Positions 7,447-33,415 of a stretch of DNA of 64,000 bases are shown piece by piece. The position numbers were made by a program, and so were the translations under genes. Numbering within the stretch: position 1 is the stretch's first letter; the number at the start of each line of letters is the position of its first letter. The stretch comes from Maylandia zebra (taxonomy: Eukaryota; Chordata; Actinopteri; Cichliformes; Cichlidae): assembly GCF_041146795.1 (NCBI RefSeq), contig NC_135179.1, positions 29,355,047-29,419,046 on the forward strand. Direction: 5' to 3'. The notes under the pieces are model-generated. The model ran no database searches, was not told where the DNA came from, and worked only from the letters and a program-made list of their open reading frames with translations.

Positions 7447-7599
7447 TATAGGCACATAACACATCAGTTACAGGCAAATGTTGTGCAAAAGCTCAGTGCT
7501 AAAATCCAAGTGTCACATAGTGTTACTAGCGACAGAGGTTACCTGTTGAAAGCTTACACTGAAGATTGTTTGTTTGGGTTTTTTAGCCCAAATTCAGTA

Positions 7600-9845: not shown

Positions 9846-10377
9846 AGCCACCTTTCTGCAAACAACAACAACAACAACAACAACAAACAAAAGGCATTCC
9901 CAGCTGTACTTTGTATGTCTACAGTCAAATATGTGAAAACCACTTTTCTTTTCATGTCATGACTTTAAGTAACAGTAAGGCATTTTTACATTCACGTGTC
10001 ACTTGAGTCCAGAATTGCTGTTAAATAGTTGAACAAAACTCATCACTCGCCCTGGACGTGTGAGTCCATGTTTTCTATTTCACAACATGAAATATTATTT
10101 AGAATATGAATGGGGTCTGAATGCCAAAATTAAGTTAGTTCTGCTGTAAGGTGCAGATTTGCATCATGTTGCTAGGAAACAAACTGGTTTGAATCAAATT
10201 TATTTTCAAAGCTGTAACGGTGTCTTACTTTTAGGATTTCTGTCACAGGCCTACACTTGGTTACAACTCTGCTTATTTTACAAATTTGTTTTTGTTTTTC
10301 TTCAGTTGACATGTGACCAAATCTGCACTCAAAAGCTGTATTCTGAAATTACAGTTAAGTTTTGATGCATAATTGCA

Positions 10378-11485
10378 ATGGACGCCATCAGATATGAAAA
10401 CTGCTATGCACCCAGTGAGGTTTCCAAACAGACGGTTCCTTCAGACTGGAGAAATGTTGAGTGGACCGACGTACGTTTCCCTTCTGCTTTCTGAGGATCA
10501 TAACAGGACGTCAGCTCTGTGCTTTGCTGTCTGACTCTGTGCTTTACTCTGACAGAAAATGAAAGTCTATCTGAATTCTGACCAAGCTGTTACTGCCAAG
10601 GATCTGCTCAGCATGTTCTCATCTTTTGGATGTGTCATCTCTGTTCAGGTAACTGTCTTACAAACGTGCTTTAGAAATGCAAAATTCACTTTCATTTGCT
10701 TCACGATTTTCCTCTCGTACTTCAGACGATTGTGAAAAACAATCACAGATACGGGATGATGCATTACCGCAGTGCCGATGAAGCTGCCGTGGCTTTGAGG
10801 GAAATGAAGAGCAGCACCAAAGTCTTCTTCGTAGCTCAAGTAGGCATCAGGGAGGTCAGAGAGGGCCCCAAGGATAAAAGATCCGAACGTCCCCATCGAG
10901 CACCACCAGGCAGCTGTAGTTACCGCCCACTGCACAGACGTCCCATTCTGTGGGAACCACTGTTTCCAGCTTACAGACAGGTAATGAAACATTTGGACTC
11001 CCACAAAAAAGAAAAAAAATCTAAAGGTTTGTTTTTTTTATGGCTGATGATGGATGTTTTGATAATTTTATGAAATCTTTTGTTTTTCTCTCGTCAGACT
11101 GTGTCTATTGAAATTGATAACCTCCCACGATCTTGGTATGAAAGAGACCTGCTGCTCAGCCTCCTCCCTCCGACCACCATTGATGTAAAGGTGCTTACTC
11201 TCCAGCATTTAAAAGCACTGATTCAGAGAAATACATATGTACACAGCACTGAAAGTTTTAAATACTGTTTCTATTGTTTTAACATGTATGCTCTGTATTA
11301 TGACCGTGCAGATATTTAAGAGAAAAGCCTGTGTGGTCTTGCCGGACTTCTCCAGTGCCTTGAGGCTCAGAGATTTGTTAAACAGTGCCCTTCACCACCT
11401 TCGCTTTATCTTTTCACCTCGTGGAAGACGGAGGTGCCCCACAGTGAAGATATCAGCAGCCGGCACCGTGCTCTGCTCTCGGTGA
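10378..11485 (+). CDS. RRM-like protein, copy 1 (five exons, 235 aa)
   Basis: I do not recognise the gene. Exons: 10378-10470, 10556-10648, 10726-10980, 11098-11190 and 11312-11485. All introns are short, GT-AG and phase 0, and three exons are exactly 93 nt. Residues 33-105 look like a degenerate RNA-recognition motif: strand 1 KVYLNS in the RNP2 position, helix AKDLLSMFSSFG, HRYGMMHY in the RNP1 position, and helix ADEAAVALREM. Residues 148-215 (VSIEIDNLP, ERDLLLSLL, KACVVLPDF, ALRLRDLLN) look like a second, weaker RRM-type fold. A basic linker (GPKDKRSERPHR) lies between, and the C-terminus is basic. No signal peptide or membrane segment is seen. AATAAA at 11557-11562 is a plausible poly(A) signal. 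RNA binding is inferred from the fold only. Clean splicing in every exon argues for a real, selected gene. Confidence 0.68.
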
Positions 11486-11556
11486 CCTGTGACCTCTGCA
11501 TGCTGTTACATATACAGATCAACACAAAAGCAACAATAACACAACTTCAGTATAAT

Positions 11557-11562
11557 AATAAA
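11557..11562 (+). terminator. Candidate poly(A) signal of RRM-like gene copy 1
   Basis: AATAAA, 72 bases after the stop codon and inside the duplicated arm. The mirror copy is at 31150-31155. Confidence 0.5.
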
Positions 11563-11654
11563 TGTAAATGCTGCTGTAGAGCTGGACCCATTATTTCTGC
11601 ATTACATGTGTTACATGATTAAAACCAGAGAAAACAGGAGCTTAAAAGATGGGA

Positions 11655-12357
11655 AACAATAACACAACCAACATGCACAGTGATCATGGAACCTGAGTGG
11701 GATATATTAGAGAGCAAGTGGCCATTTTTTCCTCAAAGTTGCTGTGCTAGAGTCAGTAAAAAGCACAAGGTCCAAAATGTGATGGCTGGATGGCTGGGTC
11801 AGCTTTGGGCATCTCCAGATCTCCAGTTCTTGTGGGGTGTTCCTGGTCTGCAGTGGTCAGTATCTATCAAAAGTGATCCAAGGAGGTAACAGTGGTGAAC
11901 CAATGATCATGGGCCAAGACACTGATACACATGGTGAGTGAAGGCTGGTGGTCCAATCCAGCAGACAAGCTACTGTGGCTCAAACTGCACAAAAAGTTAA
12001 TGCTGGTTCTGATAGGAAGATGTCACAATACACAGTGTATCGGTTTGCTGTGAATGGGGCTGCATAGCCACAGACAAGTAAGGCAAAACTGGTAGTAAGC
12101 AAAAATGCTTCAGGAACGGTTTGAGGAGCACAACAACGAGTTTGAGGTGTTGACTTGGCCTCCAAATCCTCCAGGTCTCAATCCAATCGAGCATCTGTGT
12201 ACCGGGCAAACAAGTCAGATGCATGGAGGCCCCGCCTCACAAGTTACAAGACTTAAAGAATCTGTTGCTAACATCTTGGTGCCAGCACAAGGTCTTTGTT
12301 AGCAACACAACACAGTTTTAGGCAGGTGATCATAATGTTATGACTGATCAATGTATA
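11655..12357 (+). mobile_element. Degenerate Tc1-like transposon spanning the inner edge of the left arm
   Basis: A relic of a common fish Tc1-like family. The 5' part (about 11655-12040) keeps GGGATATATTAG and the stretch encoding the N-terminal DNA-binding domain. The 3' part encodes LTWPPNPPGLNPIEHLC, the catalytic-E block, near 12150-12200, and ends with the family terminus (CATAATGTTATGACTGATCA). The middle, with the first two catalytic aspartates, is missing. The first ~110 bases lie inside the duplicated arm; the rest does not. Confidence 0.8.
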
Positions 12358-12596
12358 ATCAGGATGCATTGTGTAATACAGGAATTAGAAACACACCTTG
12401 CCACTGAACAGTTGACAGAATAATTATAATAATTTTGTTTTCTTTTGGCCCCTGTTACATTTTATTTAAAGCCAAGGGACAAGTTGCTGTTTTTAATCAA
12501 CTGAGCAGCTTTTTGGAATTAAACAACTGCTTTGATGTCTTACAATTAGCAGTTTAACCACGTTTAACCTAAACATAGTGAATGGCAGATTTTAGT

Positions 12597-12760
12597 ATCA
12601 CAGGATCTTAGTTCTGCAACTGAGACCATCGACCACAAAGCAATAACAGATCAGATGGCAAACTGTGTGGGACTTCCTGGGACAATGCTAAAGGAGTTTG
12701 AGTCCTACTTAAAGGACTGAGATGGCTTTGTGTCTGGATAATTATTAGAGTCTCGAGTTT
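12597..12760 (+). mobile_element. LINE reverse-transcriptase fragment
   Basis: Translation gives a fragment like TIDHKAITDQM ... CVGLPGTMLKEFESYLKD, which matches the (F)DTVDH...L..GL.G..L..F.SYLSDR region of non-LTR reverse transcriptases. It is very short and interrupted. The clade cannot be told. Confidence 0.55.
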
Positions 12761-13659
12761 AATGTGAATGGGTTTTCTGTGAACTCAATTCTACTTTCAG
12801 GAGCTGCACTGAGCCCGTGCTGCACTTCTGCACAACAACCACTAGATGGACCATTGGATTCTCCGAAGCAGCCGCACAGGCTGAACATGGAATACCGGTA
12901 CGTATACTTTACATTATTGTTTCTTTTAATGTTAACTGGATATTTTTCTCAGTTATAAATATTTCTGACATACAAAAACAAATAAATCACTTTTACCTCA
13001 TTCTATTTCCATTTTAATTTTATATTATAGCACTTATATCACACATCAACTGAGCAGGAAATTGATTTTGCTAGACTCACTCAGCTTATAAGGTACAATA
13101 AGTAATTTTTTCAGGTTATGTAAAGAAAAAAAGGAATGTTGTACTCATAAATATACACTGATTAGTGTTTAATTACATCATCCATCAAATTCATGCATTG
13201 TCATAAACTTAGAATGAAACCATTAAAAATACATGGGGGCAGGCACTGGTTTGCATGTTATGCTGACTTCATGTATACAGTGACTGAGGTGGATATTGCT
13301 GTTATGCCCAGTTGTGTTTTTTTGTCTGTGGCTTGAGACCAGTAACACATGTAGTATGTCTTAAAAGTTACTTTTAATTTAAAGACCACAAATACTTCTT
13401 TCAAACTATATGTGACCATTTAATATTTTTATGTGTATATTTTCATCGTCCTTCTCATTATTCCTCCTCAACTCAAGCGTCATCTCCTTAACTGAAGTTG
13501 AAATCGTGAATGAATATGTTTGGTTATTCTCAATACTGTCGCAATTACTTTGTCAGATGATAAACAGTTTGATTAAAGTATCAGATCGTGTAAGAGTTTA
13601 TTCACTAAGTGGCCGAGTCCATTGATGTTAGATCAACAAGACAGTTTCAAGTTTATTAC

Positions 13660-14306
13660 ATTGGCTAACAGCAGCTAACAGCAGCTAACAGCAGCGCTTA
13701 CTGACAGAATATTCTGGAATATTCTCCATAACTCACCTTGGTATCGCTGAAACGGACACGTGAGCTTCACTGATTCATTGATGTCACAACGAACGAGTGA
13801 ACTCAGGCGCAGGACTCTGTTGATGTTGAGAATAAACAGTTTATTTACACGATCACCGAGTGCTATATACAAAGTGCGTGGGGAATAGGGCTCCAGGGAA
13901 TCCAGGGAAGGAGGGGGAAAGCCACACACTTCTTTGGCCACACACACCACTCACCAAAACAATCAAGATTGCAACTCCAGGGGTGGAAACGGGGATGGGT
14001 CCAAGAAGATCTATGTACAGGGGAAGACAATTAGAAGCCAGGGAAACACGAGAAACGACGATACACAGGAAAGAGTCGGGGCTACATTGGTGAGTGTCGT
14101 ACAACGATCCAGTGATGAGAAACGCTGAGCTGTCGCCTAAATAGTGGCTGAAGTTCAGGACAATGAGCTGCAGGTGCGTGATTACTTGCAAGGGCATGGG
14201 CCAGAGGTGGGAACCCCAGCAGAGGCGAGCGAGAGAGAAAGGCCAGAGAGAGAAAGCAACAACAGCAACACCGAGATCGCTGGGGAGACACAGGGAACCA
14301 TGACAA
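13660..14306 (-). mobile_element. Possible solo LTR-like repeat
   Basis: On the minus strand the block begins TGTCATGGTTCCCTGTG, a sequence class often seen at the start of dispersed LTR-like repeats in fish, and contains an AATAAA with a following T-rich stretch near 13830-13845. No internal retroelement genes adjoin it. The boundaries are approximate and the family is unassigned. It is treated as a fossil. Confidence 0.3.
13664..13695 (+). repeat. 10-bp tandem repeat (GCTAACAGCA)x3
   Basis: Three direct copies of a 10-base unit followed by a partial unit. Confidence 0.85.
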
Positions 14307-16398
14307 TCGAGGCATATCGGAGTCTTTTCGGAAAGTTTTACAGCCTCCTTCGGAGAAATAGATGTGGCATAAACAGCTAACTGACAGCAAACACTCGCTA
14401 CAATTGTACTGTTGGCCGAGTTGTTTGTCCTACAGTGGCCACCATAGACAGGATTATGCACTTAAATTGGGAGGAGTAAGAAAAAAGCATTCAGTTAACC
14501 GTAATCTGCCATGTACTGACATCTAGTGGTTAGATTTTACACGTTGTACCGTTAAGAAATCACAGAAGTCCCATAACCAGTTTTTTTTATAGCTACTTAA
14601 ATAACTTTTTTCTTTTTAATGTGATTCTTCGTGAGATGAAACATTTATTATTCACTCCTGAACAAAAGTATTTACTGGCCAAAAGCTGAAGTCATAAGGC
14701 GGGTTGTAATTTTTCTTCTATAAAAGCAGGTCTGAGGGTAGAAACTCATTGAACCCGTTAATCCTCACTTAGCAGAGCTCTACATTTCTTCCTTTTTTTT
14801 CCTGGCCCATAACCTCAGGCTGCATTTACAGTGGTTTTTCTGGACTGTTTACCTTTGGCTAGGTTCATTTGTACAGGTGAAAGCACTGGAAAGGTGAAAG
14901 CAACAACCAGCAAACACAGTGACACACCCATCCATCTGTCTGTCAATAACAGCTGTACTGAACCTTCTGTCTTTCTGTGTCATATTCCTTCCATGTTTAC
15001 CTATCATGATTAGCTATCTGCTAACATCTCTCTTCCTGTCTTATCGCCTGCAATTGACACTTATCTTTACGATTATTGAGCTTATTGAAGCTATTTTTAT
15101 ACATGGGCAAGGGCCCAGAGGCAGTTACATTTTTAGTTCAGTTGGAAGTTGGCTTATGGAAGTTTTGAGGGATTCAAAATTCCCCTTTGGTTCGGGTTAC
15201 GAGTTTTGCATAAACAAAGCGAGTTGCTGTTTATCAGTGGAAAACACTGCATCTAATTAATCAAACTATCTTTCAACTGTCATATCGCTGACTTTCCCCT
15301 CATCTGCCTGTCTGCCATCTGCTCTGCAGCTACTTCAATAATAGCTTGCAGCTGCATAGGAAGGTGGGGATGGGGTGGGGGAGAGAGTGGGTGGAAGGAA
15401 AACCCAGAGGGGTAAAAGGAGGGCACGCAGGCGAGCTGGGAAGGAGGGAGGAAGGAGGGGGCGGTGAAAGCAGAGCTATGATGCAGACAGCAAATCACAT
15501 GAGCAGGGATCTGTTTACAAACTGAGACCTTTAGACAGAGAACGTGGGGAAGAGAGACGAGGAAGGAGAGTGAATGTGAGAAGAAAAGAGAAAAAAAAGA
15601 AACCACAGGCGGAGAGAGGAGACCCTAGGTTTGAGTTACCATTGGCTGCATTGTCTTCCTGCATTGACATACCTCCCCGTGTTCTGTGTTCACAGCAGGA
15701 AGCCGGGGGAAGAGATGAGTTGCTGCTTTCCACGGGAACACTGAGAGGCTGCCTGCCTGCTTGGCTGGCTGTGCTGCCGGGAGAACCCGTCCACGTCCCT
15801 CCCTTTGTCTCTCCATAATTGGCAACGGCAGGTTTTCACAGCCAGAGAGGACGAAAGCGGCGTGGAGATCTAAAAGGAGCGGACAGAGGAGTGAGAAGAA
15901 AGGGAAAAGAGAACAGAAGAAGAGGAAGGGAAGGACAGCCTTGTCACAGTGTTTTGAAGGGGGAAACAAAGCCAGAGGCTCATAACAAAAGTGCTGTATG
16001 GGATTTGGAATACATTTCCTTGTCTTGTCAGTGACATTGGTGTCTTCTCATCAGCACAACTCGGATTCTTTGTCATTTGTGGGGAATGCACAAAGGAGCA
16101 CTTTAGTTTCTACCTCTGATACATTCGCAGCCGTCTGGGAGTCAAAATCTCACATAAGTGGATGTTTTTTATGACATTCATGGGGTAAAATCATCCCAGC
16201 AGACTGAAACATTGTGTTCAAGGTCCTAGGTGTCTCTGATCAGGTGTACTGACTCTAGACCACAAGGATTTAACACAGGTATAAGAGGAACCTGGAGGCG
16301 GACATCATTTTCAGTGCTGGAAACAATCCCAGAAAAGTTGTGCAAATCATAGTTTGTGATACTGGAACGGCTTACTGGGTTTGCTATATGAACATTTG

Positions 16399-19300
16399 AT
16401 GCATCCTGTCCACTGGTGTAACGGTAAGTGACCTGGAGCCAGTTTGCCCTCCTAAAAGAGTTATATTAAGCTGTTCCACCACGATTTCCTTATACATAGT
16501 CAACTGATTTTGATTGGATAATGCTACTGGTGTTTTCTAGCAACTGATTTATACATTATTAAGCTGTTTGTAGGTAAGACATGTTTATATATAATTGTTA
16601 CTATGAGGTGAGGAAGGACTTTCCAGTCACTAGATTAGTGAAGAGCTGACCCAACCCTATCCTGATTTCATGAAGTTATGACAACAGTAACAACTAGGCC
16701 ACAACATGTTTTACTATTTTTATAATTTTAAAAAAAATGACTGCAAAAAAGTTTTTCCTACTTAATCATCTTAAAGATTTTTATGCTACACATTTCTACA
16801 AATTTTCCATCCAAAACACATCAAAATAAAACTAGTCATGTTTAACAATGATATAAGCCTATCCCCAACTAATGCATGTGCACAGTAGCCTAGCCTTTAG
16901 TGCTCCACTATCAATGATTTACTAGCATCGTGCTAAGATTACCTCCTTCGTCCAGACGTCCTCCTTAACCCTCCTCCTAAAACCCCCTGAGACTGTCACC
17001 TGCTGCAGTGACCCTTGTCCATTAGAGAGTGACTTCTGAACCAGACTTCCTCCACTGTAGCTTAACTTCTTGCACTTTAGTCTTGTGAAAACATTAATTA
17101 CTGTGGTTTAAACCTGACGTTTGTTGCATGGAATGAAAAGTGCCTTGCTCAAACCCCTCAGGCTAAGAACTTGTTTCTCCCCAAGCTAAACTAAGGGGTG
17201 TTGGGCCAAAAAGCAAGTAGAACACATTCCTTTGTGATGCAAGGAGAGATATAAAAGTTCATATTAAAGTCGGTCTATTTTAGGGTGTGGAAAGCTGCTT
17301 GTTTTCTCTGTCTTCATCATGAGGATAGCAAACATCACCAGAAACAAAAATCTGACCCCAAAATCCCACAATACTTTCCCACAACTTTCCCCTGAATTCA
17401 AACACTCTATCTAAGAATGCTAACAGGGTAAGCAGTTTGCAATTTGAGACAAGAGGCTACACAGATGTCGTGTGCAGCTCGTGTGCCAGGCTTTACAGAC
17501 TGCACAGACACAAGAGTGCACCCCCTAAAACCCAACCCTACATCCACTGTGGAGTAGTGATGGGTCGGTCGCGAACGAAATGGCTCTTAGAGCCGGGTGT
17601 TTGACATGAACGACGCGAGCCGGCTCCTTATCGCTAGCCGTGGGTTTTTTGTTGTTTTGTTTTTTCTCTCTCACCCTCTCTCGCACTTTTTTCCCGCTTC
17701 ACTCAACATGCGAGCCTTGTGCTTTATGCTGGGCAGAGGGGGGGAGGGGCGGTAGTTATGCTCAGTAGCACAGGAACAGAGCGGGAGGGAAAGACAGAAA
17801 GAGCCAGGGACAAAGGATTCAGAAAGTTTATTCATGCAGGTCCATATGACAGAGAATATACATGTTCTTTTTATTTTCATATTATAATTTATATTTAATT
17901 GTGTTGTGGTTTGCAGTGTTTTGTGGTATTTCACTTTAAATTTGTAAAAGGAAAAAGCTGAAAATTTAAATAGTTAAAAGTTGAAATGTGAATAGTTTAT
18001 TTTTGTATTATATGATTTATTTATTACATTTTATGTGGAGTGAATAAATAAACGTATATTTACAGTGGCCCCTAGAGACAAAGCGCATACAAACTTCAAA
18101 TCACATACGAACTCTGAAACACGTACAAACTCCAAAGCATGTAAAAACTCAGAAGCACATAAAAACTCAAAACACGTACAAAAGACAACAGAAGTGCTCC
18201 AGGATGTTAGGGGCAGTGTTGAGCTTTTGTTACCTAGTGGCTACACAAGCCAGCAAGTACCAACCACCGGATTTGGTGTGTGGTAATAACAGGTAAATTA
18301 ACATTTTTTTTTAAATTATTTGACTATATATGAATGCTTGTGTATAAATACATAAACAACACACATATGCTTTCATGCTTTCAATTGTGTAATTTAAGTG
18401 ATCTAGGTAGCTCTGTTTTGGAAGTTCAGTTCATGCTAGAAATGTGTTTTGGAGTTTGTACGTGTTTTGTCTCTAGGGGCCACCGCATATATTTATATAT
18501 AAACATATATAAATAAAACCACTTTTTTTGTACATTAGTAATTCCTTTTGTGCATAATTTTATATTATTGTTAATAATAAATTAATTAAAGCAACAAAAC
18601 AACCTGAAGAGCCGGTTCGGAGCTGAAAGAGCCGGCTCTTTTTAGTGAGCCCAACCGAAACCTCTGGTGGAGCTGGGTGGTCTAATACTCACATAAAAAT
18701 GTGTTTATACACACAGGTGTTAAACTTATGTTGTTGACCTTCATTCCCTTGATCTAAAATAGCAACGTGACACACATGGGAAGTCCAGACTAGTATATTT
18801 TTTGAAACAAGTTTAACAGCCTGGTTTTAAAGGCTAAAATGTTTGCTAATGCAGGCAACATTAACAACTGATAACAACTCTAGGCTACTTGTTGTCCAAC
18901 AACTGCCGAGAAAAGTTCTGGTTGTAGCTGCTAAATGTTACACGTTGATCAGTCCTTAGCTCTTAGCTACTACTCTGGTCAAGCTAATGGCTACATAGCC
19001 TTTAGCTAAGGCTACATAGCCTTTAGCTAAGTAGCTAATGGCAACGTTTTGATATGAAGATAATAGCTAGTGTTGTGTCTTCACTGCTTATGAAGAAATC
19101 GCCTCGGAGTCTTCATACTGATTCTTTTATTCCGTATATATAGAACAAGCATCCACGCAACTGTAAACTGCTAAGCTAGCACATGAACACACAGCCGGCG
19201 TACCTATCTACATCCGGTGATTTCAAAATAAAAGTTCGAACATTACAGCTAGGTAAATGGGCATTAGCTTCCTAGCAAAGGGATAAATTTATCTGCCACT

Positions 19301-22300
19301 TGATGCCGGGCAAGTAGGGTACATCTGGTTCATCAGAGTTTTCTAGTGACAAGTCTGAAGAGAACAAAAAGAACCTGTTAAACAGTATAGTTATGAAGCA
19401 TTGCAAAAAATTGTTTAAAAAAATTAAAAAACAATTGTGTATATTAGCTTTTCCTTTCCTTTTGTGCACATATATATATGTCTCTATAACATATTGGGCT
19501 ATTAGGGTCATTTCAGAACTACAGACAAAGGACATAAATTGTTCAGAATAAAATTAAATAGAAGCTTTCCCACATCTTTATGAATTTTGCAAACTATTTA
19601 GGTCATAAATATTCTGTGCAGAAAAAGCAAGCATGCTTTCTTTCTTTCCTAATGATTTCTGTTGGCATTTTAATTCCACAGCTGAATTAGCTGACTAATA
19701 GCTTTGTTTATTGTGTTGCCATACAATCAGGCATGAGAAACCATGAATCCGTATTTGCATTATCACCAACACTATATTCATGAGTGGCTTGTTCTTTGTG
19801 TCAAGATATATGAACAGTGAGCCTTACATACAGGCCACTACCAACGTATTATGGAAATATTATACACTGATATTATAAAATGATCCAGTTTAATAATTAA
19901 CTGTATTTTAATTTGAAACTATTCATAAATGATTGCTGCTATAGGTATTTATTATATAGCTCAAAATACCTTTTCATAAATCTGAACAACTAAAATGTTT
20001 ATTATGTCATTAAAGCAAATTTCCTTAGTATAAAAAATCAGCTGTGTTAAGCTATTGTGGTGGGACTGGTTTACACTAACGTGCAAGTAGTTATGGAAGT
20101 AGTTTTCTTGTGAGCCAAACTGTGTTGCTCTAGCTGTTTTAATACAGGTTGAGGTAGTTTATACACTGGGTGCAGTCTTTTTCCTCTGTGTGTATCCTAT
20201 TCTCTTAGGGTGTCTATGTAACCTCGGACTGCAGAACTCTGATCCTTACTGCAAGATGACATCAGAAACATTGCACGAACTGCCGCTCAACGTCTACATA
20301 ATCATCCTGGGCATTGGCCTCTTCATCCTCATGCTCAGCCTCATCTTCTGCTGCTACCTGTTCAGGTACAGGACAAAAGGCAGTGCAGCTTTAGAGCTCC
20401 TGCATCAGATAGCTCTACAAAACTCTTATATTTGTGTGTTTCTATGAACTAGTCACCATTTAGTCATGTGCATTAATTCATTCTAAGTCTGTCAGACTCT
20501 CAGCGGAATTGGTCTCTAATTCCAAATAGTAAATGGGTCTTTCTCTTTTAATAAACATCATAAAATCTGTTGTTAAGTAGACAGAATTGTACACCTAACT
20601 TACAAATACAAATAACAAAAGAATCAAAAATAGTTCCAAGACATATTTAATCCTCCATTCACTTATACAGGATTTTTTTTTTACCTATATTGGAGTGTGT
20701 TACAAAACAAAACATCTTATTTCTCAGTTTCTTGCAACTGTGTTTCATCCACAGCCAGACTCATTTCTTCGTATCATCTTTTATCATTTGGCATTCATAT
20801 GGGAGTTGAAATGAGTCACATGAAACTATCAGTCCAGCTGAAACAAGCTAAATTATATTATGGGGTGGGTTCACATGAGCAGATCTTAATGGCTGACTCT
20901 GAACATTAGGAGATAGTATTTTCCGCTGTCATTGCATTATGTGGAAATACATGGAACATTGTTGTTTGACAAAATGAAGTGCTGACAGAACAGGTTTAGG
21001 ACAGGGTGCTGCTTTCAAGCACTAGCATTCCTGGAAAAAGTCAGTGTAAATGGATTGATGAAGTCATGTTTCATCAGTCATATTGTGGTTTCACTAGCAA
21101 AGGTGTAGCGAAGATACCCTGGAGACAAAGGTGCTTTTACTTATCCTTCAAATTTAGTAAGGGATTGGTGAACTAGCTATTTGCTTGTTCCCCAAACCCA
21201 AAATAATGCTAATCTATTTATGCTTTACACAGCTTGTGATCAGTGCAGTAAAACTGAATTTCAGCCAGATTTTTTTCCTACAAGCGCACATTCCTGACAG
21301 AGTTACAGTTCTGCTCAGTACAAGAGTGGATGGACAGGCTGATACATGAATTTCACGTTGTGTGAATTCCAGGCCTGCTCAAAGTACTATCCCAGCTGAT
21401 TCCTACAGCATGACAAGACTTGTAATGGTGAAGACAGATGTGGAAGCATCAGACATAGTTTAGAGCTTTCATGTATCTAAATAATAATATGTTTCTTATT
21501 TGTGCTTCACAGACTGAGGCGACGAGGTGCTAGAGGGCAGTACGGCTACAACGAGGTAATATATTGATATTGTGACCAATATGACAAGTGCCAAATTGTA
21601 ATCCAGTTACACTTGCGCTTTTTCTAGAGAACTGCCATTTATATGTATATATTTTACACAAATCCCTTCTTCTCAACAGGTTGTTTTAAAAGGAGCGGAG
21701 AAGAAACTGAGCCTACTTGGTGTAAGTTAAAGGGGCAAACTGGGCTGAGATGAACAGGAACCAGAGCCAGTGTTAACTATTTAAAAGATATTTGTTATAC
21801 ATCCTTTTTGTTAAGTGATTTAAACTGTGAAAAGCAAAACCAAATAAAGGGATTAAATGGAAGCCTAATTTACTGCTGAGCTGTAGTAAATCTGTAATTC
21901 AACCAAAGAAATAGGGAACCATTGTTTGGTGTGACTGCAGCGTAAATATAGGATAGGATCAGATAAGTGTAAACTTCATCCTACTCCTTTGACTCTTATG
22001 ACAAAATGCCATCATATTTTTAAAGGTCAAATAAGAGGAGACCATGTAAAAGCATTATACATTATGTAAAACCTGCCAGTTACTTTTAGAACTACTTTTT
22101 TAACCATTAGCTGCTGGTTTTGAGGTTTAGCTAGCTACAGCAATTACAGTCATGTGAAAGTTTTCACTCAGAGTAATCTAGGCAGTCCTGTGAAAAACTA
22201 AGTACACCTGTACTGCTTCATTGAAATTATGACAGTAAATAACAGCCACATTTTAAATAGACTCTAAAGTCTAGCATTTACCCAGTATATATGAAGGGAA

Positions 22301-24669
22301 GGTTTTTTATGATAGTCAGATAGTCACCTGTCTGATGCCATACTCATCAGCGAATGTTACAAGTCATCAGATGTAACTAGCAGATTTTGTTGAATATGAT
22401 GCAAACTTCTACAACAAAAATGAAGTGGCAGTATGTTCTTAGAAAGAATTTTTGTCTTCTTTGCTAGAGTTATTTTTCGTTTTCCCACAGGAGGGAACTA
22501 TGGTGTGAACTAACACAATGATTTTTGGGGTCATAATTGGATAAAAATGGCAAAAATTGTCAGATATGGCTGAAAAAAGTATGCCAATCTATGGATTTGG
22601 CATCTAGATTTAGATTAATCAAAAGTGAAACATACAAACTGCTGAAATAGCAGTGAAATAAAACAGGTGCATAGTTGGCCCATACATAGTAATTTACAAT
22701 CTGGTAACATGCACAATTGATTGGAGTTTTATTTTCAAGTTCGATGTGACAAATTTCAGTCTACTTTTCAGCGTTGTCATCCCGCTTTCTCCTACACAAA
22801 AACAGTTTTTGCCTCACATTTGGCTTTTAGTGATCTGGTCAGTCTACAGGGCCTGGGCACCTTGCAGTCACTGAGTCAGCCATTAACTCCTTTGTATACC
22901 AAAGTATTCTGAGTCAAATATGCCATCTGTCTGACAGATAAAGCTTGACCCAAACTGGGTCATAAAACAGGTCAGTGATCCCAGGTACAGATGCAAATCT
23001 ACAACCCGCATGGGTAAAAAAAGAAAAGAATCAAAGTTACCCAGTCAAAGTCCAGACCTCAACCCAGCTGACACGCTGTGACAGGACCTTTGTGCATAAA
23101 CAAATGCCCACAAAACTCAGTGAACTGAAGCCACATTGTGTAGGAGCCACTGATAAAGTCCTGCAGACTTTACTTTAAGTTATGGCTGTTACAGGTGCTC
23201 CACGGGCATGGCTTCATGACTGTAGCTACCACTTTGTGCTAGATGTTATGTATTTATAATTCATTATTTTAGCAGTTTGATACATCATAATAAGCGTAAC
23301 TAGATTTTGGAAAAGTAAAGCAATCGAATAACTGATTAAATGCCAAAATTGGTATTGTGGTTATTCACCCAAGAGAAACAGGCGAGGTACTCACTGCTAG
23401 CAATAAATGTGTGCTTCAGGAGCTTCAGGAAGATCTCTGAAAAATTATAGTAACTGCTATATCTTAATGTAACTTTTAAGCTACCAATGAGCGAATGAAA
23501 AGATGGTCTCTATTGTGAAATCACACCCAGATGTTACACAATAAGTGTAAAAAAAAAAGGTAGTCGTTTTGAATTTTGAATTAAACCGTCATTTGGCCTT
23601 TTCAGCAAACATGTGCGGTGTGCTTGGAAGAGTTTCGCAGCAGGGACGAGCTTGGAGTGTGCCCGTGTTCCCATGCTTTTCACAAAAAGTAAGTTGTTTA
23701 GTACATCATTCCATGGTAATTATCAAACCTTCATGAGAGCAAACAACTGACTCCATGTTACGAAAACTCCAAACTCAAAACATGTTTCATTTGTTTTAGT
23801 GGTTTCACAAACTTGTAATCATGCACCTAAGCTGACTGCCTGACCGTGGCTCCATTCGTCTTTTTTAAAGCTTAAAAGTTTTAGTGAAATGTGCAAGGAT
23901 CTCGACCAGCTGGAGAAACGACATGTGCAAATTTCTTGCTGGTCTCTGCCTTCAATTAGCAGCTGACGCAGTCACCGAGGCCGTAGAATTTGGAAAAAGA
24001 TGCCCAGCAACGCTCGCAGGAAATGACTACCAGATTTCTAAGAACTCTTGACCGTGCATGTTTGAACAGGAGGACCTTTGTAACTGAGCCTTGAATTTAC
24101 CCTGCAGCTTAGGTGTGACAATAACAGCAGCAGTTTTAGACCAGCTTCTGGAATGTACATGCTGTTTACAAAGTGTGTGAGCTGTCACTGTTCCTGTATT
24201 TCTCTTTTGTTGTGTTTTTAACCACTAAACCATCACTGGGTCGCCAGGGATCTTTTTTGGGGCAGGGTAGGTTCAGTTCATATTGACCCTTTTATATAGA
24301 CTTTTCACCTACTTGGTGTATTCAGGTTTAAATCTTAAAATAGGAAAGCTGAAAGGCCAAAATCCATGTAAAGGAGCTGAGTTAAAAGGTAACATGATCT
24401 TGCTTCTGGGACTGTGCTTGTTTAACATGTTGCTAAAATGGAACCTTAAGTATTTCTCTGGTGATCTGATGGATGCTACGTGGTTAAAACTGAACCTTTT
24501 CACATAACTTTGCAACTTTGTGTCTTTGCCTCATGTCTATCCACATTTATGCAGGTGTCTGCTAAAATGGTTAGAGATTCGCAGCGTGTGCCCCATGTGC
24601 AACAAGCCCATTTGTCGCCTCCAGCCTGACCACCAGCAACCAGTGCCTCAGAGTCTCCTGGAGGTCTGA
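16399..24669 (+). CDS. rnf122: RING-H2 E3 ubiquitin ligase RNF122 (six coding exons, 154 aa)
   Basis: A membrane-anchored E3 ubiquitin-protein ligase. Coding exons: 16399-16423, 20209-20365, 21513-21555, 21680-21721, 23606-23688 and 24555-24669. All introns are GT-AG and the reading frame is continuous. The first exon is only 25 nt (MHPVHWCN plus one base) and was chosen because it restores the family N-terminus, MHPxxWCNGCxCxLGL. Residues 34-60 form one membrane span ([12 protein letters not shown] ... IFCCYLF). Residues 92-132 are a RING-H2 finger: C92, C95, C110, H112, H115, C118, C129 and C132. The length matches human RNF122 (155 aa as I recall). The paralogue RNF24 is the main alternative; the cysteine-rich N-terminus and VVLKG...QTCAVCLE favour RNF122. 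AATAAA at 24810 and 25572 are candidate 3' ends. The gene sits between the two inverted-repeat arms. Confidence 0.92.
17557..18665. mobile_element. Non-autonomous hAT-type element, decayed ends
   Basis: The left end, GTGATGGGTCGGTCGCGAAC, is followed by GAGCCGG repeats. The right end has GAGCCGGTTCGGAGC and GAGCCGGCTCTTTTTAGTGAG, an arrangement typical of a fish hAT family with repeated GAGCCG motifs in its subterminal DNA. No transposase is present. The right terminus is decayed, so the exact edge and the 8-bp target duplication could not be fixed. A second element is inserted inside it. Confidence 0.6.
18063..18485. mobile_element. 423-bp MITE with subterminal 18-bp repeats, nested in the hAT relic
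   Basis: Terminal inverted repeats: left CAGTGGCCCCTAGAGACAAA, and right, reversed, CGGTGGCCCCTAGAGACAAA (19 of 20). The flanks are CGTATATTTA and CATATATTTA, a 10-base duplication with one mismatch, 8 contiguous bases being exact. Just inside the left end are about six copies of an 18-base unit with consensus near AACACGTACAAACTCCAA. One exact inverted copy of the third unit sits just inside the right end. There is no coding capacity. Superfamily is uncertain (hAT or MULE-like from duplication length). Confidence 0.75.
22147..23235 (+). mobile_element. Degenerate Tc1-like transposon in rnf122 intron 4
   Basis: It starts near CAGTCATGTGAAAGTTTTCA, matching the terminal repeat of a common fish Tc1-like family, and ends near 23220 with remnants of the same end. 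From 22830 to 23180 the sequence keeps the 3' half of the transposase (nucleotides for QHDNDPKH-like and [10 protein letters not shown]-like blocks, around the second and third catalytic residues). The 5' half is largely eroded. It has many indels and is old. Confidence 0.7.
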
Positions 24670-24809
24670 GAGTGGAGCGTACGTCCAGCAGCACTCCACG
24701 GCTCTTCAGTCAATTGACCTGTCACTGTACAGAATCCTGTTCCACAATCTGACACACAGTACTTTTAGTAATGTGAGTATTTATGAGGCAGAGCTCTTCT
24801 GAAAGTGAA

Positions 24810-24815
24810 AATAAA
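24810..24815 (+). terminator. Candidate poly(A) signal of rnf122
   Basis: AATAAA 141 bases after the stop codon. A further AATAAA at 25572-25577 would give a longer 3' UTR. Which one is used cannot be told from sequence. Confidence 0.45.
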
Positions 24816-27599
24816 TATAGATATGAGAGTAAATAAGGAAAGCCAAAGAACATTCCCGGCAAACTGAATAAGGTGAGAGATTGGAATGGTAACCACATTT
24901 AATCTGTATGTACACGGCATTCATGATAGAGTTGCAGTAGGTTGAAATCAACCAAAGGCAGAAAAAAGGAGAAAGTTCAAAAATAACCAGCCATCTCATA
25001 TGGCTTTCCCATCATTGAATTCACAGAACTCAAACCTCTCTCTCCCACCTGAAGGTCCTGCATGTTCCTGCTTGGAATTCATTTCTTTAGATAAAAGGTG
25101 TACACTTGCAATTTAGAGTCTATTGATTTAGTTTGGTGTTATTCTCCCTTTGTGCAGCCATGCACAGCTCCAAGTGCTCTGGGTATGTTTGGATCACCCA
25201 CTCATGACTAGCTTTGCAGACACAAAACAGACTTTTTTTAAAGTCAAACTAACACAACCATGATAGCGATGATCATCACTATCGACCATAGCTGGGAATG
25301 GCCCAGAGACCAGAAAGCAGTTTCTAGTGGAGGACTTGTTTAAGGCCAAAAAGGCATATGAGGTCAAAAGGTAGCACTAAGTTTTTCAGTTTTGGCTCTC
25401 TTCAAGTTTGTCCTCTTTTCCCAGCTGGCATCAAGTGAGGTTTGACTGTTTTGAACAGAGGTGGAAGAGATTCAGTGAGCATGGGCACACCAAGAGTTAG
25501 CAATCCAAGTGGAGCAGACGTGGAGGGAGAGGTGCAGCACTTCACAGTGGGATAATCTGGAGTCAGATTTAAATAAAGCTACTTTTTAATGGTGTGGTCA
25601 CAGAATTATTATTTCACCTCTTGGCGATCAGCTATTCCAGTCTGTGCGGATTGCCTCGCCGATCATGAGCTAGCTTTTTAAAGCCTGAAAACAAAACCCA
25701 GAGAAAGTGCAGCAGTCCACTTTCCTCTGCAACTGCTGGATTACAGCGTGCTGGGAGGTTATCGATTTTCTTTTTTTTCATTGTTGCCAAAACGATTTTG
25801 TCCACTGTAGCTTTAACACAGTCAAGCCAGATGTGTAAACTAATGGACAAGTGCCTTCAAGATGCATACAATGCAAAGCCCACTAAAAACAGATGAAGTA
25901 TTTAAGAGACTTTGTAATATAAAAGAGAAAAAGAAACTGGATTTGAAGTGAAAAATGTAGCATCCATGTAGTTTTGTCAAAAAAACAAACAAACAACAAA
26001 AACAACAATAACTCAGACCACAAATCATGCTTCCTTTCATCAACCTGTGATGACAAAGTTGTTACGATTCGTGTTTGAAATTCAGTTTGCTGGTTATGGT
26101 GGAAGAGTCGGTGCTACATGTGAACAGTGAAAGTGAAACTTGTCAGACATAAGTCTAAACTTCAGACTTCAAAAGGCTCCAGTTTAATATAGACACAAGT
26201 TTTGCTTCAGGTTGTTGATCAAGTGGGGTCAGATAATATAGTTTTACTATAACTGAACTAATGAGATTATTTCTGCCTTCAGAGCAGCTCTGCCTCTGAG
26301 AAATGTTTGTATGACAAACTCCAGTCTGCTTGTTTTTTTTGTTCTTTTACTTTACCCAAAAATGACATGCAGCTCCTTGTGAACATGATTTGCTTTGATC
26401 GTTTGCTACATTTTCATAGAGCCTGAGAAAAAAAGTGCAGTCTCTTGACAATGTTATGAAGAGATCTGAACCTCCTTTGTCTCTGTGTGATGAGACGACA
26501 ACGATGATGATGATGATGATGAATGCAGAGACTGTAAAGAAAGTGCAAAATGACCCACGGGGCTGATTTAACTTAAGGAAATGGGATTATTTTGAACTAA
26601 CAAGAGGAAGAGGTGTATTTATTCAGGTGTATCTACTATTTCTCAGTCAGCTCTGTACTATACTGGGTTGCCAAGCTGAGTGAAGGTAGCCATGTCCCAA
26701 ATGTCTCGAGTGACTCACCCACTAAAATATACCTGATTTTGATATTTGTTTCTTCTTCTTCTTCTTTAAAAAAAAAATCATAACAAGGTTTCAGTAAAAT
26801 ATACTGTGAGTCTGTGATGACACAGCACTTTTGCAGGAGTGCTAACATGAACTAATTCATCTTTAAGGCAATCTTAGCTCCCCATGTGTGAAGAGCTACA
26901 CTTGCTAAAGTAAGAAGGGACTGCAGTGACATGAAAGAGCCTGTCCGAGAACAAGTGAGGTACATCATAATTATAATTCTCTGTGTTCACCATGTTATAC
27001 AGGTTAAGTACTGTGTAAACTGTAACTATAACAGTTTCTGACTTCTAAAATATATTCAGTACAATCAGCTTTTTGATAAGGTTGTCTGGACCCACGTCTT
27101 TTTTTTTTGTCTAGATTTGTTACATGTACACAATTAAAACTGTTTATTTCTATGTTGTCATTTTAATATATGAAAGAAAAGCCTGTTGGTACTCTCGCTA
27201 TATTTTAGCAACTCTGATCTTTTACAATGTGTCCTCATACAGAATAATCACAGTGTTATAACCAATGAGGTGCCACCTTATCAGTGCTATATAAATGTAC
27301 CCACCAATAATTCTGTGTAAGTTTAAATGCAGTTTGTTGTTATCTTTTTAGCAGTGTCTTTGGTGTTGACAACCTCAGCCTGTTGGTTCGTCTCTCCATC
27401 AAACACTTTGAGCTTTGAAGAAACCAGACAATTATTGTACCGCTATGGGATGCTGTAAAAACCATAACTGGTCCCCAGTGGGGATCCAGATTACTTTAAA
27501 ATTAAAGTATTCACATATCTGTTGACGTTTATCCAGCACCTTCATTCAGTCAAAAATTTAATCTGTGTTACATTTTATGGTTTGTGCCTAAATGTCTGT
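24816..27599. other. Gene-free stretch downstream of rnf122
   Basis: It may include a long rnf122 3' UTR. A short (GAT)n microsatellite lies at about 26500-26523. Nothing else is recognised. Confidence 0.45.
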
Positions 27600-28560
27600 G
27601 TAGGTTCTCAGTCATAAAGTTCATGGTAGACTTAAATGCTTGAAATGAAAGCAGCTGGACCTCTTTTTGGTTTCACCTTTCATCCAAGAGGCTTCTTTGG
27701 TTTAATCCAGCAAACTGAAGAAGCCTTAATGGTTTGCAGCCACATATCAAAAGAATTACAGGCTATTTTCATCAGCGTACCTGCTAATCCACTGACATGC
27801 TAAACTAAAATAGCAAACATTACTTTTGAAACATTAGTAATGTTAGCATTATTACTGTTAGTTTGCTAGCATACTGACCTCAGCATTCAGCTTCAAAGTT
27901 CTGGTGTGCCTGTAATAACAATCTGATTATTTCATATCACCATTTCTGCCTGTATTTATTACAGGAAGTCACGATATACTGAACTCTCAGACAGTCGATT
28001 CTGTTCATCTGTAATGTTTTCAGAGGGAGAAACATTTCCTCTCTCATCCAAGTGACTTCTTCTGACTGCAAGCTTCATCAACCTGTCTCAACCCCAACCT
28101 AACAGAAACTAGCACCACTGACTAGCATTGGGCCATGAGGTCAGTTTAATGATCAATAATATGAAAACTGTCACGACCATTGATCAAACGTCATGAGTGC
28201 CTTACAGAGAGAGTTGGAAAATGGCTGCATATGTACACTTGGGCGCCCTCCTCAGTTCAGAAGTGTGTGTTTCCTTTTTTCATGTAAATGGTCTCACTGA
28301 CGTCCCGCTCAAACCAGCGTTCCTCCCTGTCTAGGATGTGTACAAGTGAACAAGTGCCCACTGGCCTGTAGGTGTAACAGACTGTGGAGTCCTGACCCAA
28401 CGAGGTAGTTCTTCTGTGTTGTGCCATCCACTTAGCCGGAGGTTGTTTGGTTTCCAGGAGTTAGAAATCACAGGTCCTCCTGGCTCTTCACCGCATACAT
28501 TATAATCTGCTTGTGCCGGGGGATCGATCCTTGGGGTGGACCAGTTTATAATGTTTACAT
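27600..28560 (-). mobile_element. Penelope-like retroelement relic with GIY-YIG endonuclease remnant
   Basis: On the minus strand at about 28250-28500 the broken translation keeps ETKQPxxKxMAQHRR-type and ILDREERWFERDVSE-type blocks, characteristic of the C-terminal GIY-YIG endonuclease of Penelope-like elements. The blocks near 27640-27730 and 28020-28080 (AAGAGGCTTCTT and CATCCAAGTGACTTCTTC) resemble the untranslated tail usually found with this fish family. Only the 3' end survives and it is clearly old. Confidence 0.6.
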
Positions 28561-30600
28561 CTAAGTCTTCTTAACTCATAAACAGAATTTCTGGTCTACT
28601 ACAGGGTCTTTACAGGGACAAATAAGCGACCGTACAGGTACAAAGATGCACGTCTTACTGCATAAATATGCACAACACAAAAGCAGAGACAAAAGAAAGC
28701 TGTTGCACAGAGTCAGCAAATGTCTGGAAATTCCCTGCTCAGGTATGACATCAGGGTATTTGTGCAAGAACACATCAATTGTGTCACGAAAAGGTTTTCA
28801 AAGATGCTAACTATTGATTGTTGACACTGATTAACCGGATTACCTGCAGACACTTGAAAAGGCAGAAATTTCATTTGAGTCCCCAAAACACCACACTACA
28901 AATGTTCTAACATCTATATTCCCACATGCCCTGAAAGTAGTCCACAGTTCCTCATAAAGTAAATATTTAACTTCAAGAAGTCTCAGATATCAGCATGCAT
29001 TCAGTGTTCTGCAGACAAATTACCTCATTACAGCAAGTGGAGAGAATGATTAGAAGATAGAGAGGATAATCGCAAAGGGAGGGGATAAGCTGGTTCACAG
29101 GTTCTCTCAGTACATGACTTGTTGCCTTAATTATAAATAGATATCAAAGAGCATATGGTTCTATTTATGTTTTCGTCTTTGTCTGGAATGGTTGTTTTTG
29201 TTTCCTTGGCATCCATGCGTGTATAAGCAATCAAATCTCTGGGCTTAGTGACTCACCTAATGTCTCTTTCCTTTTTCTGGGTGCACAACTCTAAGTGGCT
29301 GTAGTCTCTCAGTCAGCAAATGGGCTGATTGTTATCCTCCTGCAAGATGATGCCACATCTGGCATAACCTGACTCGAAGAAAACAAAACAAATAAACCAG
29401 GAGGATGAAGAAAAACTTTATCGTATTTGAGAGTGTAATAAAGGATAATACATCCATCTACTCATGATACATATTGTACTTTATGGTTCACATAAAATGA
29501 ACATGTGTCACATGATCTCAGATATACAATACACAAGCTAGTCACTGTTATTCCTGCCTCTTCATTCCCAGGAACTGACTGTTGTATTCCATCATCAGCA
29601 CAGGGATGTACCAGAAGTCACTTCCCTAAACAAAAAAACACAGAGGCAACCCGATGTCACACAACTCAACAACAACTCACTGTTGTTGCTATTTTGACTT
29701 TGTGGATTATAAAGAAGATGTGATTGAAGTTCAGCTTTAGTTTAATGTTTTTAACAAAAATAAAATGGAAAAATTATTTTTTTACTCGGATGAAAATCCC
29801 TTGCAGCTGAAGACTGCAATACCTTAAGCTGCAGCTTGTTTGTGAGTCTTTTCGTTAACTGAAAAGTATACTAAAAAAAACAAGTTGGGTTTTTTCCATT
29901 TTTAATAAAACAAAGAGTGGAAATACCTCCAACACACAAACATTTGACAACCCAGCATGCAATTAATTTGCACAAATGTAATGTCTTTGATATGCTGCTC
30001 AGAGATGGTCGTGACTCTCAAATCGGAGCCAGTGATAACTCTTCCTCTATGCTGTTGCATGCTGGGGCGGCAGGTGGGGTGTTGCAGATGCCAACGGTCA
30101 CAGGAGCACGCTCAGTGAGAGACTGAGATTACACAAATGCACCACAGAACGACACAGGAAGTCATCCATGCCTGTACAACTCCTCCATCTAATGCACAGT
30201 ACACAGAGCAATAGTTACTTTTGCACATGCTCTTCAGTGAAATTAAGAAATAATAAAGTTTGACAGGTTAGAGTAAAATGTCAGTCATATGTATCTCATC
30301 TCTGTAATATTCTGGATATTTATAATTGAGCTATTTATATATATCACAGCTATTTCTTATATATTGTAAACTTTATAATATATTTTATTATTTAATTTAG
30401 TTCAGTCGGTTACTGTTCTAATTGTCTTGGATTAATAAAGATTCCGATTCTCTCCCCTGTGGAACAGAAACTAAATTAGAGTTCCTAGGCTCATTTAAAC
30501 TTAGGTGGCATTGTTGCAAGGTAGCCAGAATTCTGTCACTAGTGGGGCATTGTTTTGTAAGCTTTCTGTTTACTCAGATCAGTGACTGCCAACTTCCCCC
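28561..30600. other. Gene-free stretch with hAT-like repeat
   Basis: Mostly unique AT-rich DNA. The segment 29930-30050 (CAATTAATTTGCA ... GGAGCCAGTGATAAC) is similar to 33250-33345 (CAATTAATTTGCATGAATGC ... GGAGCCAATGAGAAC) in the same orientation, so both belong to one dispersed family, probably hAT-related. Confidence 0.45.
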
Positions 30601-31060
30601 TCATGCCACATCAATCATTAACCCCAGTTTTACAGCAGGACCCAAGTTTTCCCAGCACAGCACTGCCTCCGCTGGTTTGTGTTGTTCCCGCGGTGCATCC
30701 TGGTACCAGGCAGTCGCCACCTACACACAGGCTCATGCACCGAGGCATGTATGTGATGTAAAAGAGGACGTGATTCATCCGACCAGGACACCTTCTTCTA
30801 TTGCTCTGTGGTCCAGTTCTGATGGTCAAGTGCCCATTGTTGGTGCTCATAGTGGTGGATAGGGGTCAGCATGGGCAGCCTGACTGGTCTGCAGCTATGC
30901 AGCCCAGTACACAGCAAACTGTGACGTTCTGTGTATTCTGAAACCTTGCTTTTTACTGACTCTAGCACAGCAACTTTGAGGAAAAAATGGCCACTTGCTC
31001 TCTAATATATCCCACTCAGGTTCCATGATCACTGTGCATGTTGGTTGTGTTATTGTTTCC
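30600..31060 (-). mobile_element. Degenerate Tc1-like transposon spanning the inner edge of the right arm
   Basis: Same family as 11655-12357, reversed. Bases 30948-31060 belong to the duplicated arm. Below 30948 the relic jumps to a later part of the element, with nucleotides for VHHYEHQQWALDHQNWTTEQ-like and W..DESRPLLHH-like blocks from the transposase centre. The 5' coding third is missing, and the 3' half is lost beyond about 30600. Confidence 0.75.
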
Positions 31061-32853
31061 CATCTTTTAAGCTCCTGTTTTCTCTGGTTTTAATCATGTA
31101 ACACATGTAATGCAGAAATAATGGGTCCAGCTCTACAGCAGCATTTACATTTATTATTATACTGAAGTTGTGTTATTGTTGCTTTTGTGTTGATCTGTAT
31201 ATGTAACAGCATGCAGAGGTCACAGGTCACCGAGAGCAGAGCACGGTGCCGGCTGCTGATATCTTCACTGTGGGGCACCTCCGTCTTCCACGAGGTGAAA
31301 AGATAAAGCGGAGGTGGTGAAGGGCACTGTTTAACAAATCTCTGAGCCTCAAGGCACTGGAGAAGTCCGGCAAGACCACACAGGCTTTTCTCTTAAATAT
31401 CTGCACGGTCATAATACAGAGCATACATGTTAAAACAATAGAAACAGTATTTAAAACTTTCAGTGCTGTGTACATATGTATTTCTCTGAATCAGTGCTTT
31501 TAAATGCTGGAGAGTAAGCACCTTTACATCAATGGTGGTCGGAGGGAGGAGGCTGAGCAGCAGGTCTCTTTCATACCAAGATCGTGGGAGGTTATCAATT
31601 TCAATAGACACAGTCTGACGAGAGAAAAACAAAAGATTTCATAAAATTATCAAAACATCCATCATCAGCCATAAAAAACAAACCTTAAGATTTTTTTTCT
31701 TTTTTGTGGGAGTCCAAATGTTTCATTACCTGTCTGTAAGCTGGAAACAGTGGTTCCCACAGAATGGGACGTCTGTGCAGTGGGCGGTAACTACAGCTGC
31801 CTGGTGGTGCTCGATGGGGACGTTCGGATCTTTTATCCTTGGGGCCCTCTCTGACCTCCCTGATGCCTACTTGAGCTACGAAGAAGACTTTGGTGCTGCT
31901 CTTCATTTCCCTCAAAGCCACGGCAGCTTCATCGGCACTGCGGTAATGCACCATCCCGTATCTGTGATTGTTTTTCACAATCGTCTGAAGTACGAGAGGA
32001 AAATCGTGAAGCAAATGAAAGTGAATTTTGCATTTCTAAAGCACGTTTGTAAGACAGTTACCTGAACAGAGATGACACATCCAAAAGATGAGAACATGCT
32101 GAGCAGATCCTTGGCAGTAACAGCTTGGTCAGAATTCAGATAGACTTTCATTTTCTGTCAGAGTAAAGCACAGAGTCAGACAGCAAAGCACAGAGCTGAC
32201 GTCCTGTTATGATCCTCAGAAAGCAGAAGGGAAACGTACGTCGGTCCACTCAACATTTCTCCAGTCTGAAGGAACCGTCTGTTTGGAAACCTCACTGGGT
32301 GCATAGCAGTTTTCATATCTGATGGCGTCCATTGCAATTATGCATCAAAACTTAACTGTAATTTCAGAATACAGCTTTTGAGTGCAGATTTGGTCACATG
32401 TCAACTGAAGAAAAACAAAAACAAATTTGTAAAATAAGCAGAGTTGTAACCAAGTGTAGGCCTGTGACAGAAATCCTAAAAGTAAGACACCGTTACAGCT
32501 TTGAAAATAAATTTGATTCAAACCAGTTTGTTTCCTAGCAACATGATGCAAATCTGCACCTTACAGCAGAACTAACTTAATTTTGGCATTCAGACCCCAT
32601 TCATATTCTAAATAATATTTCATGTTGTGAAATAGAAAACATGGACTCACACGTCCAGGGCGAGTGATGAGTTTTGTTCAACTATTTAACAGCAATTCTG
32701 GACTCAAGTGACGCGTGAATGTAAAAATGCCTTACTGTTACTTAAAGTCATGACATGAAAAGAAAAGTGGTTTTCACATATTTGACTGTAGACATACAAA
32801 GTACAGCTGGGAATGCCTTTTGTTTGTTGTTGTTGTTTGCAGAAAGGTGGCTG
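30948..32853 (-). repeat. Right arm of the 1.9-kb inverted duplication
   Basis: Reverse complement of 9846-11765, with near-perfect identity. Known differences include one conservative amino-acid change in the gene (M to V in the RNP1-like motif), a synonymous change in the last exon, a shorter CAA microsatellite and small homopolymer changes. Exon lengths and all splice sites are preserved. Confidence 0.93.
31227..32332 (-). CDS. RRM-like protein, copy 2 (five exons, 235 aa)
   Basis: Mirror copy of the gene at 10378-11485. Exons in order of transcription: 32240-32332, 32062-32154, 31730-31984, 31522-31614 and 31227-31400. Lengths (93, 93, 255, 93, 174) equal those of copy 1. The frame is open and all GT-AG sites are intact. 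The one protein difference seen is HRYGMVHY in place of HRYGMMHY in the RNP1-like strand. The upstream DNA of copy 1 is duplicated for about 500 bases before the ATG, so both copies may share their proximal promoter. Candidate poly(A) signal at 31150-31155 (minus strand). Function is unknown; RNA binding is inferred from RRM-like folds. Confidence 0.68.
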
Positions 32854-33415
32854 TCAGAACAGTATGATTTGTGTCCTTGGAAAACTGAATTCTGCAACTT
32901 CTTTTTCCAACGTTTTAATTTGCAGCTACGCACCGAGGCTGCTGGCACTTTAAATTCTCTTTTTGCTGGTTTTTATTGTTGTTTTCATATCTAAATACCA
33001 GGAGAAAGATCGTATCTGTGTTCTCATTAGGATTGGGATTTTTGTAGGCTTAGCCTATGGCCTATAAGTTTACTTTGTTAAATGCTAGTTATGACACAGT
33101 GTGTTTCACTTCTCTTATGGAGAAGTGTGAAAGTAATGTCATGAGTACTGTAATGAATTACTTTCTCCTTGAGTTGGTACTTAACATACTGCGTTACTTT
33201 TTAGTAACAACAACAACACTGATAAGAGCAGAAACAGCTCCAATGTGCACAGACAACATCCACAGCAAGCAATTAATTTGCATGAATGCCTGATATACTG
33301 CTTAGTGACGACGGTGACTCTGAGAGTGGAGCCAATGAGAACCCGGGGAACTGATAAGGAATCAGGATGGTTGAATTCTTATCAGTTCCCATCTCTGCTG
33401 AAATACACTTCCTAC
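32854..33415. mobile_element. hAT-type element relic
   Basis: 33060-33220 has the TACTTTTTAGTAAC-type core, and 33345-33415 has GGGGAACTGATAAGGAATCA followed by its partial inverse TTGAATTCTTATCAGTTCCC. This palindromic GATAAG-rich end is typical of a hAT family in fish. No transposase is present. Edges are approximate. Confidence 0.45.

Follow-up and report, generated by a model that had tools for sequence, protein, structure and literature searches.

Template switching has been proposed as the source of a local inverted gene duplication in Drosophila subobscura, where two Attacin genes lie close together in opposite orientation (PMC7584159), and a survey of tandem gene pairs in vertebrates found convergent pairs to be a minority of 3–14% (PMC2547482). 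In work on recurrent human inversions, highly identical inverted repeats were delimited as those exceeding 1 kb in length at 97% identity, and the 22 candidates had cores of 5.1–226 kb (PMC3961182). These three reports describe the systems closest to the locus considered here.

Here, we describe an inverted gene duplication in the cichlid Maylandia zebra, located in a window of 64,000 nucleotides (the whole stretch of DNA analyzed; contig NC_135179.1, positions 29,355,047 to 29,419,046 of the forward strand). Two copies of a gene encoding a divergent RNA recognition motif (RRM) reside on inverted arms around a core that carries another gene. The resemblance to the Attacin pair lies in the copying of intron-bearing DNA, the inverted orientation and the short distance between the copies; the Attacin genes, however, are arranged head-to-head, whereas the Maylandia zebra copies are convergent, enclose a 19-kb core with another gene and have a junction between two Tc1-like relics (PMC7584159). 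Like the tandem pairs surveyed in vertebrates, the RRM genes form a local duplicate pair of two members, in the convergent arrangement, but they are set apart by the spacer gene, rnf122, and by their near-complete identity (PMC2547482). The arms also resemble the repeats flanking human inversions, being inverted, longer than 1 kb and more than 97% identical, with a 19-kb core that falls within the range of 5.1–226 kb, the difference being that the present core is known in one orientation, from one assembly (PMC3961182).

Two near-identical inverted arms

Self-BLAST of the window matched positions 9873–11765 to 32837–30947 on the minus strand at 99.683% identity over 1893 bp, with four mismatches and one gap opening of two bases, and an ungapped repeat finder, independent of self-BLAST, recovered the same two arms. 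Local alignment lengthened the match to 9845–11771 versus 32853–30943 and placed all differences between the arms in four substitutions and three length differences, namely, 12 bp of a CAA run close to the outer end, a gap of two bases (TT), and a 2-bp difference (CA) at the inner junction. We refer to 9845–11771 (plus strand) as arm A and to 30947–32853 (minus strand) as arm B. A near-identical inverted duplication of a small gene had been proposed in a sequence-only reading of the window, and the proposal is borne out by these alignments, with coordinates that were almost exact. The orientation given there, head-to-head, is wrong: the genes are convergent, copy A on the plus strand and copy B on the minus strand, with the 5' ends directed outward and the 3' ends toward the core. 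The size and identity of the arms are sufficient, in principle, for recombination between them, as that reading had also held.

The divergence of the arms is 0.21% (95% interval 0.06–0.54%), which agrees with the recent origin claimed earlier insofar as the duplication is either recent or recently homogenized. Fish mutate at a rate of a few 1e-9 per site and generation, so that the duplication would be some hundreds of thousands of generations old, if conversion has not been resetting the divergence. High identity would also be expected if one real copy had been placed twice in the assembly or if a haplotype difference had been misassembled. Such an artefact is very improbable, given that the copies differ at four bases and in three length differences, that the flanks of arms A and B are unlike on both sides, that the orientation is inverted and that the junction at arm B joins two distinct Tc1-like relics.

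Segmental duplications are defined as segments of at least 1 kb with at least 90% identity that are not high-copy repeats. The present segment spans 1893 bp at 99.68% identity and was found in full at two places in the 962-Mb genome; among the best 40 of 384 candidates scored in the DNA search, there was no third copy of the arm, and the other matches to the arm query were confined to its Tc1-like inner end (window positions 11683–12000, from query position 1838 on). The arms could, alternatively, represent a mobile element carrying the gene, given their sharp edges and the transposon relics at the inner edges. However, only the two copies appeared among these best 40 of 384 candidates, neither terminal inverted repeats nor a shared target-site duplication could be discerned by eye at the edges, and the introns are retained, hence the arms are not retrocopies; we regard this alternative as scarcely credible. 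Retrocopying of the gene itself is likewise rejected because introns are kept in both copies. The duplication is a segmental duplication of a known kind that carries an unnamed, divergent RRM gene, and is an ordinary local event.

A divergent RRM gene on both arms

Copy A of the gene (10378–11485, plus strand) comprises exons 10378–10470, 10556–10648, 10726–10980, 11098–11190 and 11312–11485, and copy B (31227–32332, minus strand) comprises exons 32332–32240, 32154–32062, 31984–31730, 31614–31522 and 31400–31227. In both copies, the five coding exons are 93, 93, 255, 93 and 174 nt long, all multiples of three, with GT and AG present at the exon borders. The five exons, splice sites and open frames noted earlier in both arms therefore hold for the coding exons, with a 235-codon frame in each copy; none of 20,000 base shuffles of the copy A coding sequence stayed open. 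The coding sequences of the two copies differ at two bases, one of them silent and the other replacing methionine 74 of the 235-aa copy A protein with valine in copy B (M74V).

An AATAAA signal at 11557 falls within arm A, so that the 3' end of the gene is probably complete within the arm. At the other end, a sequence that by eye closely resembles a 3' splice site, TTTTTGTTTTTCTTCAG, ends near 10305, 72 bp 5' of the ATG; accordingly, the gene could have its promoter and a noncoding first exon beyond the arm, and copy B would then be devoid of both.

The Pfam profile RRM_1 (PF00076) matched aa 41–91 of the protein with a score of 26.7 bits (gathering cut-off 20.7, E 5.2e-6), and because this match runs from exon 2 into exon 3, it supports the spliced model. 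The best matches among solved structures are weak, to an RRM of SPEN/Msx2-interacting protein (E 0.0011) and to PABP1 (E 0.0022). The RNP1 and RNP2 motifs of RRMs have characteristic patterns of aromatic residues, which were used for comparison. The RNP1-like HRYGMMHY retains two of the three aromatics when set against KGYGFVHF of PABP1 in that weak structural match, whereas the RNP2-like VYLNSD was picked by eye and lies outside the PABP1 alignment. M74V falls within the RNP1-like strand, which reads GYGFVHF in PABP1, RYGMMHY in copy A and RYGMVHY in copy B. The earlier claim of two RRM-like folds was sustained for the first, by the RRM_1 match, but not for the second: the pattern of aa 148–235 appears RRM-like by eye, with no match to any Pfam family up to E 10 and no RRM among solved structures in the PDB, where the two matches obtained were at chance level.

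The protein thus shares with RRM_1 proteins such as SPEN/Msx2-interacting protein and PABP1 a score above the gathering threshold and the alignment of RYGMMHY with GYGFVHF, and differs from them in the weakness of the similarity, in that no paralogue was found in the genome and in having no second RRM by profile. When the 962-Mb genome was searched with the protein in six frames, 10 of the 11 matches were exons of the two copies, and the eleventh (E 9.6) was at chance level. In NCBIfam, the sole match, to PABP, was weak (22.9 bits versus a cut-off of 497.1), and of the stretches that fit the protein pattern in IMG/VR (5) and in GTDB genomes (76), none was confirmed as a relative. The gene had previously been left without a name, and it remains so after the profile search, which assigned RRM_1 but no name, and the genome search, which found no paralogue. 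As judged from its sequence, the product most likely binds RNA and contains one or more divergent RRMs. For now, the second copy would mainly add dosage, and this unnamed and recently doubled gene is a candidate for dosage effects.

The core between the arms

The core between the arms is about 19 kb long, and the gene copies lie about 20 kb apart. It contains a gene on the plus strand (20103–24700, outer limits approximate) with pieces of the RNF122/RNF24 type: the piece CAVCLEEF...HAFHKK is encoded at 23612 and other coding pieces are found at about 20280 and 24565. We take this RING-type gene to be rnf122. Its earlier placement in the core is supported by these coding pieces but not by Pfam, where no family reached the cut-off for the piece tested, 20103–20447. 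The papers listed with rnf122 in a literature search on the gene, duplication and teleosts mention it in their reference lists alone. Beyond rnf122, the segment 24800–30321 has no recent twin elsewhere in the genome among the best 40 of 3808 candidates scored; the longest matches in that set cover up to 566 query bases at 69–72%, and identity reaches its maximum of 85% in a match of 59 bp.

Inner junctions and the direction of copying

The inner end of arm A is crossed by a relic (11683–12370, plus strand) that we assign, as an assumption, to the Tc1/mariner-like family and that continues unbroken past the 3' end of the arm. It is 65% identical to the dispersed copy L004 over 761 alignment columns and is colinear with that copy on both sides of position 11765, with shorter matches to the dispersed copies L003 and L005–L008. 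At the inner end of arm B, the same relic as in arm A is cut, and next to it lies part of a different relic that belongs to this family and has the same orientation. This second relic enters about 250 bp further into the element, with positions 12014–12084 at A matching 30950–30878 at B at 76.7%. Because the Tc1-like relic is unbroken at A but cut at B, A represents the older state at the inner end, which identifies arm A, on the evidence of the junction sequences, as the source and arm B as the derived copy. By eye, the overlap is about 1 bp at the inner junction and CAG at the outer junction. A new element here is that the direction of the duplication, from A to B, can be read from the relics.

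A twin of the core-side flank on another chromosome

The core-side flank of arm B, including its piece of Tc1-like relic (30322–30950, minus strand), has a twin on another chromosome, C14 (24219002–24219630, L025), that extends over 629 bp at 99.2% identity without a gap. On C14, the Tc1-like relic runs on without a break at the position corresponding to the start of arm B in the window, so that the twin keeps the earlier proximal side of B, and the state of B before the arm is recorded there in part. The opposite end of the segment shows the reverse pattern: the dispersed repeat found at 30322 is cut in C14 but intact in the window, from which we infer that the piece reached C14 from B first and that the arm was added to B afterwards. 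The history of C14 is therefore uneven, and any reading in which arm B was copied from arm A must assume such a transfer from B to C14 before the arm. The divergence of the C14 pair, 0.79% (0.26–1.86%), compared with 0.21% for the arms, agrees with an order in which the transfer came first and the arm later, although the difference is weak (Fisher p 0.048).

Between 104 kb on the window side and 110 kb on the C14 side, one further match was found, 205 bp at 88%, among matches listed at no less than 88% and 80 bp or at more than 500 bp. As an observation in its own right, the 629-bp segment common to the two chromosomes cuts relics at opposite ends and is apparently a separate, small dispersed duplication.

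Outer flanks and the possibility of an older inverted pair

Some 440 bp beyond the outer end of arm A, a dispersed repeat has left a relic (9171–9402, plus strand), and a relic of the same repeat directly borders the outer end of arm B (32854–32944, minus strand), where it matches L022 and L024. The two relics are 82.0% identical over 89 aligned bases (78% over 73 bp by BLAST) and are in the same register. Counting the one at A, the repeat family has at least six genomic locations. The outer flank of A has, besides itself, six short and diverged matches (71–86%, at most 169 bp), and that of B becomes another dispersed repeat from 32931 outward, with up to 76–79% identity to other places. A 107-bp search with the outer flank of B returned only itself; this search is insensitive, as the known relative beside A was missed as well.

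The two flanks thus share the order repeat–gene–Tc1-like relic in inverted register, which, together with the closeness of A as seen from B, is the strongest point in favor of a history in which A and B are older inverted paralogues and a diverged repeat–gene–Tc1 copy at B was overwritten by recent conversion from A, with deletions at both edges. The similarity of the flanking relics, 82.0% for the outer pair and 80.3% for the Tc1-like pair, fits such a history, but its weight depends on the side from which it is assessed. Seen from A, no special kinship is evident: the Tc1-like relic of A is 80.3% identical to that of C14, within the 77.9–83.5% found between it and six other copies, and its outer repeat is 82.0% identical to that of B compared with 82.1% to L024 and 77.5% to L022. 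Seen from B, both relics are nearest to those of A, the next best trailing by 1 to 3 points, with C14 to A at 80.3% against 76.4–79.3% to the six others, and B to A at 82.0% against 79.4% to L024 and 69.0% to L022. The kinship of the flanking relics between A and B is ambiguous as judged from these comparisons, and we reject the view that the similar flanks prove the duplication to be old, there being no special kinship from A's side, even with A nearest from B's side.

Two further points count against the older pair. In the 8 kb around the C14 twin, no older gene copy was detected at E 1e-3, a threshold at which a strongly diverged copy could be missed, and conversion tracts alone do not delete both ends. 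We consider overwritten older paralogues with edge deletions a serious alternative, though less likely than a recent copy. An old inverted duplication in which the gene-bearing 1.9 kb alone was overwritten by recent A-to-B conversion, leaving flanking relics about 80% alike, strikes us as somewhat less plausible still. If an old pair was indeed overwritten, the locus would be an autosomal miniature of palindrome-style concerted evolution that keeps two convergent copies alike around rnf122.

A recent templated copy as the favored explanation

The explanation we favor, and consider probable, is that arm B arose recently by templated copying of arm A and was joined within Tc1-like relics. It is favored by the relic at the inner end of A, which is colinear with dispersed copies both before and after 11765, by the joining of two different Tc1-like relics at non-matching points in B, by the occurrence of the core-side sequence of B on C14 without the arm, by the failure to find a third gene copy (among the best 40 of 384 DNA candidates and all 8 of 8 protein candidates), and by an outer flank of A that has only short, diverged matches elsewhere. 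It is weakened by the presence of the same dispersed-repeat relics in matching orientation in both outer flanks, which an older duplication at B would explain as well, and by the small margin with which A is the nearest relative of B in both relics.

The direction of copying and the structure of the junctions are written in the sequence; the steps that would connect them are as follows. A break or a stalled fork may have occurred in the Tc1-like relic at B, and its repair may have used as template the inverted Tc1-like relic beside the gene, 19 kb away. Synthesis would then have proceeded away from the core for about 1.9 kb, taking in the entire gene, until the new strand was end-joined, through microhomology of a few bases, to the distal side of B, as in break-induced replication or template switching. 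The outcome would be a second complete coding copy, inverted and convergent. In this young duplication, a single genome reveals which copy is the source and which is derived, as well as some of the state that preceded the insertion, and for that reason the route of repair can be argued from the junctions.

Other elements in the window

Two full-length Tc1-like transposons (3014–4554 and 5883–7448) lie in inverted orientation and are 97.9% alike. Each has its own terminal repeats of 36–38 bp, is flanked by TA and contains a frame for a DDE_3 transposase, with stop-to-stop lengths of 362 and 250 codons, respectively, and they look like two separate insertions. Remains of a reverse transcriptase at 34591–35505 on the minus strand (RVT_1, E 2.1e-31), with related frames within 33770–36317, are probably derived from a non-LTR retrotransposon. 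An intermediate filament gene with Filament and Filament_head domains, presumably internexin-like, is located at 49962–52216 on the minus strand. Self-BLAST also revealed a short inverted pair, 60688–60923 and 61746–61987, with 91% identity over 242 bp.
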